From Muribaculaceae bacterium (lineage in GTDB: Bacteria; Bacteroidota; Bacteroidia; Bacteroidales; Muribaculaceae): DNA of 45,285 bases. The stretch is from positions 1 to 45,285 of the forward strand of contig JAGATN010000001.1 in NCBI GenBank assembly GCA_017621225.1. The letters run 5' to 3'. A model generated the notes under the pieces. That model saw only the letters and a program-made list of their open reading frames with translations, was not told the DNA's origin and made no database searches. Every line of letters starts with the position of its first letter. Position 1 is the stretch's first letter. A program made the position numbers and the translations under genes. Shown piece by piece: positions 1-45,040 of the stretch.

Positions 1-140
1 CGAAGGAATTGAGAGGATTTGTCAAGTAGATTTTTGATATTTATGAAGGAGTTATGGGGTGCCATAATGACTGAATAAATATCAACAAGATGCTGACAAA
101 GACCTCAATGACATGACAAAATAAATTTTTAAACAGTTTC
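1..140. repeat. Palindromic MITE-like element, copy A (left end cut by window)
   Basis: This stretch matches 31886-32025 over its whole 140 nt with five differences that I count (positions 28, 58, 60, 114 and 116). It is the same element as the complete copy at 31864-32025 but lacks the first 22 nt, which lie outside the window. The two halves are imperfectly complementary: a TTGATATTTAT segment near 33-43 pairs with ATAAATATCAA near 75-85. The right end is TTTAAACAGTTTC, followed by TAA at 141-143, which would be a 3-bp target duplication if the left side also carries TAA. The element ends about 38 nt before the S9 peptidase start, so it forms most of that gene's visible upstream region. No open reading frame is seen in it. 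Confidence 0.8.
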
Positions 141-178
141 TAAAATCCCTTAAGTCATAAATAAACATATTTTTCATA

Positions 179-30911: not shown

Positions 30912-31759
30912 TATTCAATCATGCCCTCGACGGGCGATTGCATTATCACGCCAAGCTCATAGCCGGTAAGACGCGCGGCTTCGTCAAGAATATCGGAAAA
31001 ATGATAGGCTATCGAGCCGGTGAAGTTAATCGGGAAATAGCCATAAACGTCGTAGTGCGACACATTGCGTCTGAAGAAGCTGCAAAATTCCGACAGCACA
31101 AGTTGCTTCAATTCGGGATGATGAATGTTTTCACGCAAAAACGGTGCAAACGATGCGAGAAACCGGCTTGGCGATTCGCCGCGATACACCCCTTTCACTA
31201 TCGACGTAACGTCAAGGCCATAACGATCGAGGAAGTCACGGCACAAGCGTTCGGGCAATTGCTTTTTCAAGACGTCGCCCACCAACCTGCGTCCGAGTAC
31301 GGCGCCGGAGCCCTCGTCGCCAAGTATGTATCCCAACGGCGACACGTTATGTGCCAATCGTACGCCGTCGTAATAGCAGCTGTTTGACCCCGTGCCGAGT
31401 ATGCACACTATGCCTTGCTTGTCACCACACAGACCTATGGCGGCACCGAGCAAGTCGGAATCGGCCGTTACCGTCTCGGCGCGCAACGCTTTGGCAATGG
31501 TTCGTTCGACCATCGACTTTATGTCGTCCGACACGCACCCCGCGCCAAAAAACTTCACGCATCCTATTTCGAAACCGTCGATACGCGGCGCCACCTCCGC
31601 TTTAAGCCGACGATATATCTCGTCGTCCGTCATAAGCACGGCGTTTATGCCCGACGTTTCAAACCGGCACCTCAAATTTCCGTCGGCATCCAGCCCCACC
31701 CATTCTATGTGTGTTGCTCCGCCATCGGCCAATAACAGCAATCGTTCACTCATATCCAT
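30863..31759 (-). CDS. BadF/BadG/BcrA/BcrD-type ATPase, N-acetylglucosamine-kinase-like
   Basis: The 298-residue ASKHA-fold protein has a phosphate-1 loop (LLLADGGATHIEW, near residues 8-20), the GTGSNSCYYDG segment (phosphate-2) and LGDEGSGAVLGRR. Relatives phosphorylate N-acetylglucosamine or related amino sugars. Cytosolic action is expected. Its 3' end overlaps uvrA by 49 nt on the opposite strand. Upstream lie a hairpin, the palindromic element and a ROK kinase gene. Met1 or Met3 may be the start. Substrate assignment is from the family only. Confidence 0.85.
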   Translation of the reverse strand: MDMSERLLLLADGGATHIEWVGLDADGNLRCRFETSGINAVLMTDDEIYRRLKAEVAPRIDGFEIGCVKFFGAGCVSDDIKSMVERTIAKALRAETVTADSDLLGAAIGLCGDKQGIVCILGTGSNSCYYDGVRLAHNVSPLGYILGDEGSGAVLGRRLVGDVLKKQLPERLCRDFLDRYGLDVTSIVKGVYRGESPSRFLASFAPFLRENIHHPELKQLVLSEFCSFFRRNVSHYDVYGYFPINFTGSIAYHFSDILDEAARLTGYELGVIMQSPVEGMIEYYSSRAASLSARKRPV

Positions 31760-31779
31760 AATGCGTAAAACAGCGAAGA

Positions 31780-31818
31780 ACGCTTTCCGAAGCCCAATTG
31801 CCGGCTACCGGAAAGCGT
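31780..31818 (-). terminator. Hairpin between ROK kinase gene and BadF-type gene
   Basis: ACGCTTTCCG (31780-31789) and CGGAAAGCGT (31809-31818) form a perfect 10-bp stem. On the minus strand it is followed by TCTTCGCTGTTTT, a weak U-rich stretch. It could be the terminator of the ROK transcript or an attenuator in front of the BadF-type gene, which starts 20 nt further on. Confidence 0.5.
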
Positions 31819-31863
31819 CCGTTCGTCATTCATTCATATTTTCATACAATTGTCGCTCCATCA

Positions 31864-32025
31864 GAAACTGTTTAAATTTATTTGTCGAAGGAATTGAGAG
31901 GATTTGTCAAGTGGATTTTTGATATTTATGAAGGAGTTATGGTGGGCCATAATGACTGAATAAATATCAACAAGATGCTGACAAAGACCTCAATGACAAG
32001 TCAAAATAAATTTTTAAACAGTTTC
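31864..32025. mobile_element. Palindromic MITE-like element, copy B (complete, 162 bp)
   Basis: The termini are GAAACTGTTTAAA and its complement TTTAAACAGTTTC. The two arms of about 79 nt are complementary with small gaps along their whole length and meet at a TGGG tip near 31943. TCA at 31861-31863 and TCA at 32026-32028 flank it as 3-bp direct repeats. The right TCA is the complement of the ROK kinase stop codon TGA. A second copy at 1-140 differs at five of 140 positions. There is no coding capacity, so movement would need a transposase in trans. The 3-bp TNA-type duplication recalls some IS5-family subgroups, but that link is inference. Confidence 0.8.
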
Positions 32026-33048
32026 TCAAGCCTGAGGGGCTGCAGTAGCGGCCGTAGCGGTAGCGGCGAGCGTGGTTGTGGCGGGTTTTGCCTCCCAACC
32101 GAGAGCACTTGCGCCAAGCACTGCGGCATCGGCTTCTTTCAATTCCGACAAAAGCACTTTTACTTTGCCTTTAAATACGCTCAGCATGTTCTTGTCCATT
32201 GCGTTTCGCAACGGCTTAAGAAGCAATTCGCCCGACTTGGCAAGACCGCCGAACAAAACGAAAGCTTCGGGCGACGAGAATACCGTGAAGTCGGCCAAAG
32301 CCTCTCCGAGTATCGTACCGGTATATTCGAACACCTCTTTGGCAAGTTTGTCGCCTGCCATTGCAGCGTCATACACATCTTTCGAAGTAATGCTGTCGAT
32401 GTCGAGATCGCGGAGCAACGACGGATCGGTGCGCAATTCGAGATATTCGCGTGCGGTGCGCGCAACCCCGGTGGCCGAGCAATAAGTTTCGAGACAGCCC
32501 GTGCGACCGCAACCGCACAGACGGCCATTGTTGCGCTTCACAATCACGTGTCCGAGCTCGCCGGCAAAACCGTCATGGCCATAAACCAACTGACCGTTTA
32601 TCACGATGCCGCTGCCCACGCCGGTGCCGAGCGTTATCATTATGAAATCCTTCAATCCTCTGGCAGCGCCATAGGTCATTTCGCCGATGGCAGCCGCATT
32701 GGCATCGTTGGTAATTGCTACGGGTATGCCGAATTTCTCAGAGAGCATTTGTGCAAAAGGTATGGGAGTAGGCCACGGCAAATTTACGCCGTCTTCTATC
32801 ATACCGGTAAAATAATTGGCATTCGGAGCGCCAACGCCTATGCCGTATATTTTCCCTTCTGCGTCGATCGAGCGAATGAGACGCAGAGCTTCTGAATGCA
32901 GTTCGTCGATATAATCGTTGATATTAGAATGTTTGGCTGTTTTGATGGAGTTGCTGGCCAAAACCACACCTCTGGCATCTACTATGCCAAACACAGTATT
33001 GGTACCGCCCATATCGATACCGATAACGTAAGGTTTACTGTTGTTCAT
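32026..33048 (-). CDS. ROK family sugar kinase, probable glucokinase
   Basis: From the start at 33048 the protein is 340 residues and opens with YVIGIDMGGTNTVFGI, the ROK ATP-binding loop. It has a GTGVGSGIV segment, the catalytic region HVIVKRNNGRLCGCGRTGCLE with the ROK zinc motif CxCGxxGCxE, and FVLFGGLAKSGELL. ROK glucokinases phosphorylate glucose in the cytosol. The in-frame ATG at 33111 lies upstream of a -7 element and is not used here. The last 20 or so residues are Ala/Thr-rich low complexity. The stop codon lies at the very edge of the palindromic element and coincides with its target duplication. Confidence 0.88.
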   Translation of the reverse strand: MNNSKPYVIGIDMGGTNTVFGIVDARGVVLASNSIKTAKHSNINDYIDELHSEALRLIRSIDAEGKIYGIGVGAPNANYFTGMIEDGVNLPWPTPIPFAQMLSEKFGIPVAITNDANAAAIGEMTYGAARGLKDFIMITLGTGVGSGIVINGQLVYGHDGFAGELGHVIVKRNNGRLCGCGRTGCLETYCSATGVARTAREYLELRTDPSLLRDLDIDSITSKDVYDAAMAGDKLAKEVFEYTGTILGEALADFTVFSSPEAFVLFGGLAKSGELLLKPLRNAMDKNMLSVFKGKVKVLLSELKEADAAVLGASALGWEAKPATTTLAATATAATAAPQA

Positions 33049-33085
33049 GTTGTAAGATTGCTTTTTATTTAAAACTTCAATGCCA

Positions 33086-33093
33086 CAAAGATA
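33086..33093 (-). promoter_or_regulatory. Candidate -7 element for ROK kinase gene
   Basis: TATCTTTG on the minus strand fits TAnnTTTG and ends 38 nt before the chosen ATG. A TTTG lies only 11 nt further upstream, too close for a standard -33, so support is partial. Confidence 0.4.
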
Positions 33094-33197
33094 ATTTAAA
33101 TATTCAAACATACTGAATCATCAGCGCCATTTTTTTATTTAAATTCAGTGATTATTTGTTAATTTAATGTTTCGCCCCGCAAACGCCACACGATTTA

Positions 33198-33229
33198 TTT
33201 GTGGCAAAATCAAATAAGCAGTAATTTTG
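33198..33229 (+). promoter_or_regulatory. Promoter of C11 peptidase-mscS operon
   Basis: TTTG (33198-33201) and TAATTTTG (33222-33229) are separated by exactly 20 nt, a full match to the Bacteroidetes pattern. The peptidase ATG follows 27 nt downstream. Confidence 0.72.
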
Positions 33230-33256
33230 TAACCTTAAAAAAACGTATATCGAATT

Positions 33257-34414
33257 ATGAGAACAGCTATACAGATATTGGCACTGCTCGGCCTGTGCCT
33301 GCTATGCGGATGCGGACCTAATAATGACAACCCCGCGCCCGAACCCACGCCACGCACGGTTCTCGTGTACATGGCGGCAAACAACGACCTCGGCCTGAAC
33401 AACTGGGATGCGCGCGACATAGCCGAAATGCGAAAGGCCGTGGAAGCCGACGCGCTCAACGGCGGACGATTGCTCGTGTACCACGACGATTACAACTCGA
33501 CTCCCACCCTTTTTGAAATAACGAAAGATGGCAACAATACGCTACGCACATATTCGACCGATGCCGCTGCCATCGACATCGATCGCATGAAAGAAGTGAT
33601 GAGCGACATCAAGTCACTTGCGCCCAACAAAGAGTACGGACTCGTGTTGTGGAGCCACGGAACAGGATGGGTGGAAGATGAAGGATCGCGATCGGCCGTG
33701 ACGCTCAATCCTTACTCGTTCGGCGCGCACTGGAACGACAACGGCAGTCAGGCAAAGATGAAAATCACGTCATTGGCCAAGGCCCTCGAAGGTGAGGACT
33801 TCGAATTCATATATTTCGACAACTGCCACATGGGCACCATAGAGGTGGTTTACGAAATGCGAAATGCCGCGCGCAAGATAGTGGCATCGGCAACCGAGCT
33901 TCCGCTCGAAGGCATGCCGTATGACCGCAACATACCGGTGTTTTTCGAAAAGAACCTCGACATTACGAAAGCCGCAAAAAACACTTACGACTACTATTGC
34001 AGCCCGGATGCATCAACCAATTCCTGCACCATTTCGGTAATCGACACCCGTCAGCTCGACAATCTGGCATCCGTAACTGGCAACATCATGGCATCGGCAC
34101 CGTCGCTTCCCGACGACTACAAGCCAATTCCGCTGTTCCGCCAATCGGTAGTTGCCGACGGAGGCATTTACGACATGTCCCACTACATCAGCGCTCTCGA
34201 CATAGATGCATCGAAGCTCAACACATGGCGATCGGCATACAACTCGGCCATACCGTATCACGCATCCACTCAAAAATCATACGGCCTCGACACCTCCAAA
34301 TTTTCGGGCCTCGGCTGCAACATATTGCAAAAGGCAAGCGACGCAACCATACTCGGATATGAAAACCTGAGCTGGTGGAAAAACGTTATAAGTAGAAATC
34401 CCGCACTACACTAA
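33257..34414 (+). CDS. Clostripain-related (C11) cysteine peptidase lipoprotein
   Basis: The 385-residue protein has a lipoprotein signal with lipobox LCGC (lipid-bearing Cys19), then a Pro-rich spacer and a C11 peptidase domain. The catalytic dyad is His134 in LWSHGTGW and Cys190 in FDNCHMG. Clostripain-like enzymes usually cleave after Arg or Lys and often self-activate. Lipid anchoring suggests action at the envelope. The mscS gene follows after 12 nt, most likely in the same transcript. Confidence 0.88.
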   Translation: MRTAIQILALLGLCLLCGCGPNNDNPAPEPTPRTVLVYMAANNDLGLNNWDARDIAEMRKAVEADALNGGRLLVYHDDYNSTPTLFEITKDGNNTLRTYSTDAAAIDIDRMKEVMSDIKSLAPNKEYGLVLWSHGTGWVEDEGSRSAVTLNPYSFGAHWNDNGSQAKMKITSLAKALEGEDFEFIYFDNCHMGTIEVVYEMRNAARKIVASATELPLEGMPYDRNIPVFFEKNLDITKAAKNTYDYYCSPDASTNSCTISVIDTRQLDNLASVTGNIMASAPSLPDDYKPIPLFRQSVVADGGIYDMSHYISALDIDASKLNTWRSAYNSAIPYHASTQKSYGLDTSKFSGLGCNILQKASDATILGYENLSWWKNVISRNPALH

Positions 34415-44567: not shown

Positions 44568-44575
44568 AAAAAGTG

Positions 44576-44647
44576 TAGCCCATAGGAGAATCGAACTCCT
44601 CTTTCAAGAATGAAAATCTTGCGTCCTAACCGATAGACGAATGGGCC
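44576..44647 (-). tRNA. tRNA-Glu (anticodon UUC), distal copy
   Basis: The 72-nt cloverleaf starts GGCCCAT and ends ATGGGCTA (G1 opposite U72, then six Watson-Crick pairs). The anticodon stem CAAGA/TCTTG encloses TTTTCAT, giving anticodon TTC. The T-arm AGGAG-TTCGATT-CTCCT is intact, and CCA is not encoded. It is identical in all 72 positions to the copy at 44969-45040. Confidence 0.95.
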
Positions 44648-44926: not shown

Positions 44927-44968
44927 TACAAATAAATCTATTATATCTTTATTCAGTTTTTTAATTTG

Positions 44969-45040
44969 TAGCCCATAGGAGAATCGAACTCCTCTTTCAA
45001 GAATGAAAATCTTGCGTCCTAACCGATAGACGAATGGGCC
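44969..45040 (-). tRNA. tRNA-Glu (anticodon UUC), proximal copy
   Basis: Same 72-nt sequence and fold as the distal copy, with anticodon TTC in a TTTTCAT loop and no encoded CCA. It is the first gene after the promoter at 45068-45099 and precedes rpsT by 42 nt. Confidence 0.95.

Follow-up and report, generated by a model that had tools for sequence, protein, structure and literature searches.

An end-to-end palindrome such as the one at 31864–32025 of the window, by which we mean the whole 45,285-nucleotide stretch of Muribaculaceae DNA that was analysed, raises two questions: whether it is a mobile element, and whether the mismatches inside its hairpin are decay or parts of a structure that is kept. 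The first-pass annotation had described a 162-bp palindromic element flanked by 3-bp direct repeats, and these bounds are borne out, with TCA on either side. The reported GAAACTG...CAGTTTC termini prove to belong to an exact 13-bp terminal repeat (AGAAACTGTTTAAA/TTTAAACAGTTTCT), the element beginning with GAAACTGTTTAAA and ending with TTTAAACAGTTTC. The features of the locus are as follows.

31864..32025, + strand: hairpin MITE (miniature inverted-repeat element) of type T1, 162 bp, oriented by the tandem GA mismatches on the + strand
31861..31863, no strand: left target-site duplication TCA, from the sequence read and the TNA rule over 103 elements
32026..32028, no strand: right target-site duplication TCA; on the minus strand these letters are the TGA stop codon of the ROK gene
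31864..31876, + strand: left terminal inverted repeat GAAACTGTTTAAA, a 13-nt sequence also found at the ends of the 869-bp insertion sequence (IS) of related genome G180
32013..32025, - strand: right terminal inverted repeat
31915..31976, + strand: conserved apex hairpin, model R1, 73.0 bits, 51 nt from the left tip
31930..31931, + strand: first tandem GA mismatch, 5' arm, facing 31958-31959
31934..31935, + strand: second tandem GA mismatch, 5' arm, facing 31954-31955
31954..31955, + strand: second tandem GA mismatch, 3' arm
31958..31959, + strand: first tandem GA mismatch, 3' arm
1..141, + strand: a further copy of this element, truncated by the contig edge at the window start

Folded as RNA, the whole element forms a single imperfect hairpin of -58.2 kcal/mol (z -9.3), and the DNA fold has a z of -7.9; none of 200 shuffles was as good in either case. 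The complementarity of about 79 nt between the two arms, as originally claimed, holds in that one imperfect hairpin is formed, but is loosely put, as the self-complement alignment reaches 69% over query positions 3–166; the inner inverted repeat spans 27 nt at 78%. The element encodes no protein, as had been noted, since the two + strand open reading frames (ORFs) of at least 80 aa that overlap it either enter from outside (31392–31922) or run out of it (31975–32895). A ROK-family gene (32026–33111, minus strand) adjoins its right side, and because the right TCA is the TGA stop of this gene, the element is placed exactly on a stop codon. Near the window end lie two tRNA-Glu genes with the same anticodon (44575–44647 and 44968–45040).

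Copies in the source genome

A search of the source genome, a draft assembly of 2.53 Mb in 47 contigs that is 93.8% complete, found the element at 36 places, which rules out a chance palindrome. The other 35 copies are 91–98% identical to it; eight of the places are cut by contig ends, and two hold internal partial or deleted forms. Deletion derivatives that keep both ends measure 78, 32, and 20 bp (84, 38, and 26 bp with flanks; L066 999–1082, L068 1001–1038, and L069 1001–1026, flanks included), the smallest being hardly more than two overlapping end repeats. The same genome holds a second palindromic MITE family with the ends GAGTATGTTTAC, seen at four places (L057–L060; G000:C24:111341, C8:86670, C1:4198, and C19:42776), which carries the same apex hairpin and has equal TNA flanks in all four.

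Target sites and loci in relatives

The flanks were surveyed over 103 related elements from all loci collected. The flanking 3 bp read TNA on the left in 100 and on the right in 99, and the two flanks are identical in 86 of the 103, against 39.8 on average and 57 at most when the right flanks were shuffled 10,000 times; 17 have unequal flanks. Hairpin elements with the ends GAAGTGATTTAAAC break the TNA rule, none of five having TNA on both sides; three of these five (L105, L113, L117, L208, and L214) have equal 3-bp flanks (ATA, AAT, and AGT), which may point to a different target rule.

Sequence surrounding the window copy is matched in 31 of the 34 genomes of the genus, its own included. Nineteen loci of relatives were compared, and 18 were informative, L234 being set aside as the end of the gene is absent from its stretch. 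Neither the apex hairpin nor such ends occur anywhere in 2.4–4 kb in 17 of the 18, so that relatives without the element at this site do exist, with intergenic sequence too diverged for a base-exact empty site. The remaining relative (L227, genome G033) carries a MITE of a different type, flanked by TAA/TAA, at the stop codon of its ROK orthologue; that MITE is followed directly by another element, whose ends resemble those of the source genome's IS.

The putative partner insertion sequence

A full-length IS with the same 13-bp termini was found in G180, which has at least eight copies of an 869–870-bp IS, all flanked by TTA/TTA. Both ends are exactly GAAACTGTTTAAA in seven of eight copies; in the eighth, one end differs by a single mismatch. 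The source genome, within its 93.8% complete draft, has no intact IS with the element's ends; its sole intact PF01609 transposase sits in an 891-bp IS5-type IS (L075) that is related and has the different ends GAGAGTGTTTGAATTTAAA. The transposases of three related ISs match DUF4096 and DDE_Tnp_1, and those of L075, L127, and L131 score 167–183 bits against the NCBIfam IS5 model NF033580, whose cut-off is 110 bits; these scores cover L075, L127, and L131, and the G180 transposase is 72–73% identical to that of L127.

Joint movement of IS and MITE is seen in genome G144, where four of six IS copies are abutted at an inner TTA by a hairpin MITE that shares their 13-bp ends (L267–L270, units of 1032 bp, the MITE being inverted relative to the IS in L268). 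The outer duplication is TAA/TAA in two of the four, and since the inner junction is TTA, IS and MITE have there moved as one unit via the far end of the MITE; in the other two the outer flanks are TTA, which is not diagnostic. Relatives of the source genome's transposase occur in two of nine hairpin-bearing genomes searched, its own and, in a weak and broken form, G003, and a G144-like transposase is present in 33 of the 297 family genomes, more rarely than the hairpin, many of the genomes in these searches being drafts. No hairpin match lies near the eight IS copies of G180, which is not among the 111 genomes that match model R1.

The reading as a miniature inverted-repeat element is thus supported by the copies, the TNA duplications, the absence in relatives, and the IS with the same 13-bp ends. 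By comparison of sequences, the mobility of the 162-bp element is well supported, and it is very likely an IS5-type MITE. Its interior differs from that of the G180 IS, and on this comparison the 162 bp are not a plain leftover of that IS.

The conserved apex hairpin

Elements of other genomes in the genus differ in their letters and have a similar architecture. A first alignment comprised 19 sequences. Without L035, which has an irregular apex and scores only 43.8 bits with R1, and without L059, it gave an apex alignment of 17 rows. This alignment has 17 invariant columns, eight of which are taken up by two tandem G.A mismatches. Covariation between paired columns is 0.697 in the 17 sequences, against 0.241 ± 0.027 in shuffles and 0.10–0.15 with the partner slid.

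Model R1 was trained on those 17 apex sequences, which come from eight genomes. Over 116 matches (96 distinct), covariation is 0.727 against 0.229 ± 0.010 in shuffles, and each of the eight GA residues is kept in 89–95 of the 96 distinct sequences, the 96-sequence alignment (A3) being fitted to the model's own structure and drawn from 91 selected loci of the 216 collected. With 20 representatives of clusters at 70% identity, covariation is 0.853 against 0.258 ± 0.028, and the GA residues are kept in 17–20 of the 20. Read from these alignments, the internal mismatches of the element are not decay, and the retention of the fold while many letters change suggests that the fold itself matters to the elements. 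The interior of the MITE is a conserved structured module, of which no earlier description was found: in the open-licence PMC full-text literature, none was found of the element or the fold.

Distribution, end types, and classes of IS

Within the family, R1 matches 111 of 198 genomes, spread over 21 of 30 genera. An order-wide sample of 393 genomes gave ten, four in the family and six outside it, and a phylum-wide sample gave none in 394 genomes besides the source genome, which shows that the model is specific; the per-genome match counts in the family, order, and phylum samples are lower bounds. Out-of-family loci L201, L202, and L211 are, by eye, palindromes with ends near GAAACTG and equal TNA flanks, and L210 is such a palindrome with TNA on the left side only. 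The palindromes that hold the apex hairpin in L204 (G551) and L205 (G294) are of a different family; GTGAGTTC or GTATGTTC occurs in their ends, which the MITE239 ends printed in PMC4596501 loosely resemble. L203 is ambiguous by eye, and the match at L206, in apparent coding sequence, is probably a chance one.

An exact apex pattern finds elements in three of 34 genomes, fewer than R1 matches because it allows no mismatch and only a narrow length. Among 44 named stretches with an exact apex pattern, 42 are in Muribaculum, Muribaculaceae, or uncultured Porphyromonadaceae records and two in Lachnoclostridium. The latter (L165 and L175) are apex-bearing elements on large contigs of a Lachnoclostridium sp. 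record (JAMPAP010000002.1 and JAMPAP010000001.1), the label of which may be wrong. The hairpin carriers appear to be Muribaculaceae, which are abundant in the mouse gut and present in people. Carriage by phages or plasmids was rejected for the patterns searched: one exact apex pattern had no match in viral contigs, the 162-bp element none in plasmids, and a type-T4 element none in phages.

The hairpin occurs with the end types GAAACTG, GAGATTG, GAGTATG/GAGTGTG, GAAGTGATTTAAAC, GACCCCG, and GAGCCGG/GAGCCTG, several of which match the ends of IS5-type ISs. Class I ISs (868–898 bp), some with the same ends, contain no apex hairpin, and class II ISs (1078–1281 bp) have it near their ends. Among five class II ISs with both ends resolved, four have the hairpin at both ends and L256 at the left end only, and it lies 50–51 nt from the tip at all nine hairpin-bearing ends; L257 and L258, with two inverted hairpins each, are left out of these counts. 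The MITEs are without a gene, so regulation of a transposase gene cannot be the sole reason for keeping the hairpin, and since class I ISs do without it, the fold is not a strict requirement for transposition.

Where selection acts

Comparison of 26 source-genome copies gave 80 substitutions over 126 paired positions and 36 over the 36 unpaired ones, 13 of these last falling at a single loop position. With variants found in more than three copies set aside, 50 paired and 10 unpaired substitutions remain, with no sign of pair constraint. Of 79 pair changes, 56 broke the pair, 22 kept it by a one-sided change, and one was compensated. Resident copies thus decay while lineages keep the fold, suggesting that selection acts not on resident copies; judged from these substitutions, it seems to act on the fold during spread.

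Proposed explanation

The element is best explained as a non-autonomous IS5-family MITE that is one copy of a shared hairpin module kept foldable, and we give this explanation, taken whole, a probability of about 0.8. The IS5-type transposase of the G180 IS, or that of a relative, would move the element in trans. The shared module consists of an end repeat, about 51 nt, the apex hairpin with its tandem G.A mismatches, and a closing complementary arm, and its lineages carry different end sequences, several of them matching IS5-type IS ends. The GA-bearing strand is kept foldable between lineages while single copies decay, and the folded strand could, for example, help the transposase or a host factor to act on the end of the element.

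As to its function, we think it most likely, at roughly even odds against the alternatives, that the single strand in its folded form contributes to the spread of the element itself and does not serve the genes beside it. A broader proposal, which we put forward tentatively and hold to be somewhat doubtful, is that a widespread family of IS5-type DDE elements and their MITEs relies for mobility on a strand-specific hairpin of RNA or single-stranded DNA, which lies about 51 nt from the tip and contains tandem sheared G.A pairs, and that the MITEs are an old self-standing lineage that swaps ends to follow transposases and keeps the fold.

Alternative explanations

The fold might act as RNA, with incoming transcripts forming the GA hairpin and insulating the element through termination, processing, or protection, thereby aiding its persistence. 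Since a GA mismatch reads as a TC mismatch on the opposite strand, the motif exists on one strand only, and this strand is the more stable in 18 of 18 elements (one incomplete element of 19 was dropped), by a mean of 16.2 kcal/mol as RNA and far less, 4.9 kcal/mol, as DNA. G.U cells outnumber A.C cells by 153 to 35, and by 87 to 35 without column 24–48, where G.U is the commonest state (66 of 96). The excess holds after clustering at 90% (39 vs. 14, P = 0.0008) and 80% (21 vs. 8, P = 0.024), and is not significant with the 20 representatives at 70% (12 vs. 7, P = 0.36). Together with the strand stability, it leans towards an acting strand of RNA rather than single-stranded DNA, as far as sequence can indicate. 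Both hairpins of the two-hairpin class II ISs, moreover, offer the GA strand to transcripts entering from outside. The folded-DNA mobile repeat proposed in the first-pass annotation is accordingly upheld in part: the fold is conserved, with one strand favoured, and the acting strand could be RNA or single-stranded DNA.

Several observations weigh against this insulating role. Rfam 15 gave no match at the gathering threshold in the 2.5 kb of window positions 31000–33500, and a lax search of seven loci gave none on the elements, so that a known Rfam family was rejected. The MIR840 and mir-341 matches of the lax search are spurious, coming from a separate long G+C-rich hairpin repeat at L044 1717–1851 (G035). 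No U-run follows the stem 3', by eye, which also disposes of an intrinsic terminator. Both neighbours at the window site are antisense to the GA strand, so that transcripts of the two flanking genes would carry the less stable strand, and orientation with respect to genes shows no significant preference. We consider an action of the fold as RNA in this sense rather unlikely.

Long perfect palindromes are unstable, and the mismatches could merely make a long palindrome tolerable to a host with hairpin nucleases such as SbcCD or RNase III. The helix is indeed interrupted at intervals in the 16 elements drawn (three drawings ended at a branch). Any mismatch would serve this purpose, yet the same GA residues stand at the same places in 89–95 of 96 sequences, and such an explanation is improbable.

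The host might also keep the element as a regulatory or 3'-end element for its neighbours, positioned on stop codons. Insertions fall exactly on a stop codon in 13 of 79 cases, against 7.6 expected (P = 0.024), 79 of the 103 elements being usable (12 lie in a called ORF, and 12 have no called neighbour or site), and copies of different types sit on the stop codon of the same gene in two genomes. This excess is too weak for strong stop-codon targeting, and it may be explained by the target rule itself, as TNA includes TAA and TGA and insertion there spares the protein. Among 60 elements with co-directional neighbours, 37 are antisense and 23 sense (P = 0.09), both counts resting on crude ORF calls, and single copies show no pair-keeping. 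The effect on processing or stability of neighbouring mRNA suggested at the outset is thus not supported, given the lack of a clear orientation preference and 56 pairs broken to one compensated, and a host regulatory element was rejected on the same orientation count and the decay of copies; we regard host upkeep as very improbable. That a plain deletion of one IS left the element behind, its likeness of fold across species being ancestry without selection, agrees with source-genome copies that are 91–98% identical and decay freely, but is scarcely credible given covariation far above the shuffled and slid controls, the fixed unpaired GA residues, and the lack of any such interior in the IS with the same ends.

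Relation to known systems and significance

The element, read as a non-autonomous IS5-family MITE, shares 13-bp ends and the 3-bp TNA duplication with IS5-family ISs (DUF4096 and DDE_Tnp_1), but has no gene; among these ISs, class I lacks the hairpin and class II has it near the ends. Subgroups of the IS5 family include IS1031 and IS427. A three-nucleotide insertion site is described as common in the IS1031 group (PMC2516522). Among the open-licence literature, the closest known elements are the IS5-type MITEs of Porphyromonas gingivalis (BrickBuilt, MITE464/PgRS, MITE239, and MITE700; PMC4596501), which are likewise non-coding, multi-copy, and furnished with IS5-like end repeats, the ends of ISPg4 being listed there as GAGACTGTTGCA. 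BrickBuilt and PgRS differ in having internal tandem repeats, and the description of the P. gingivalis MITEs, in the parts of PMC4596501 that concern them, makes no mention of a cross-species fold with tandem GA.

RUP and NEMIS are among the short repeats named in PMC3733652, as are REP elements, which resemble the element as strand-marked palindromic repeats, some of them spread by a transposase in trans. REPs measure 20–40 bp and bear a GTAG or CGTC tag at one end (PMC3733652), whereas the element has terminal inverted repeats and TNA duplications and is linked to an IS5-type transposase. These repeats and duplications speak against membership in the REP/RAYT system, as far as the sequences allow a judgement. 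RUP, NEMIS, Correia, and ERIC elements are, like the present one, short, palindromic, intergenic, and present in many copies with terminal inverted repeats; we know of no fold kept across many end types for any of them. At the ends of IS200/IS605 elements, which use a Y1 HUH transposase, folded DNA near the IS end takes part in mobility. The seekRNA of IS110/IS1111 elements, which use a DEDD transposase, is described as a folded RNA near the IS ends that acts in mobility (PMC11187229). Unlike both, the element pairs with an IS5-type DDE transposase and terminal inverted repeats, and no guide role is claimed for it.

MITEs are usually viewed as leftovers of ISs that matter only by their ends, whereas in the present family structural conservation extends to the interior, across several end types and also near the ends of autonomous ISs. 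Were the fold to function in mobility, reliance on a folded strand, which to our knowledge has so far been recorded for IS200/IS605-like and IS110-like systems, would extend to DDE elements of a large IS family, and this would help to account for MITE lineages that survive beyond the IS by which they were first mobilised.
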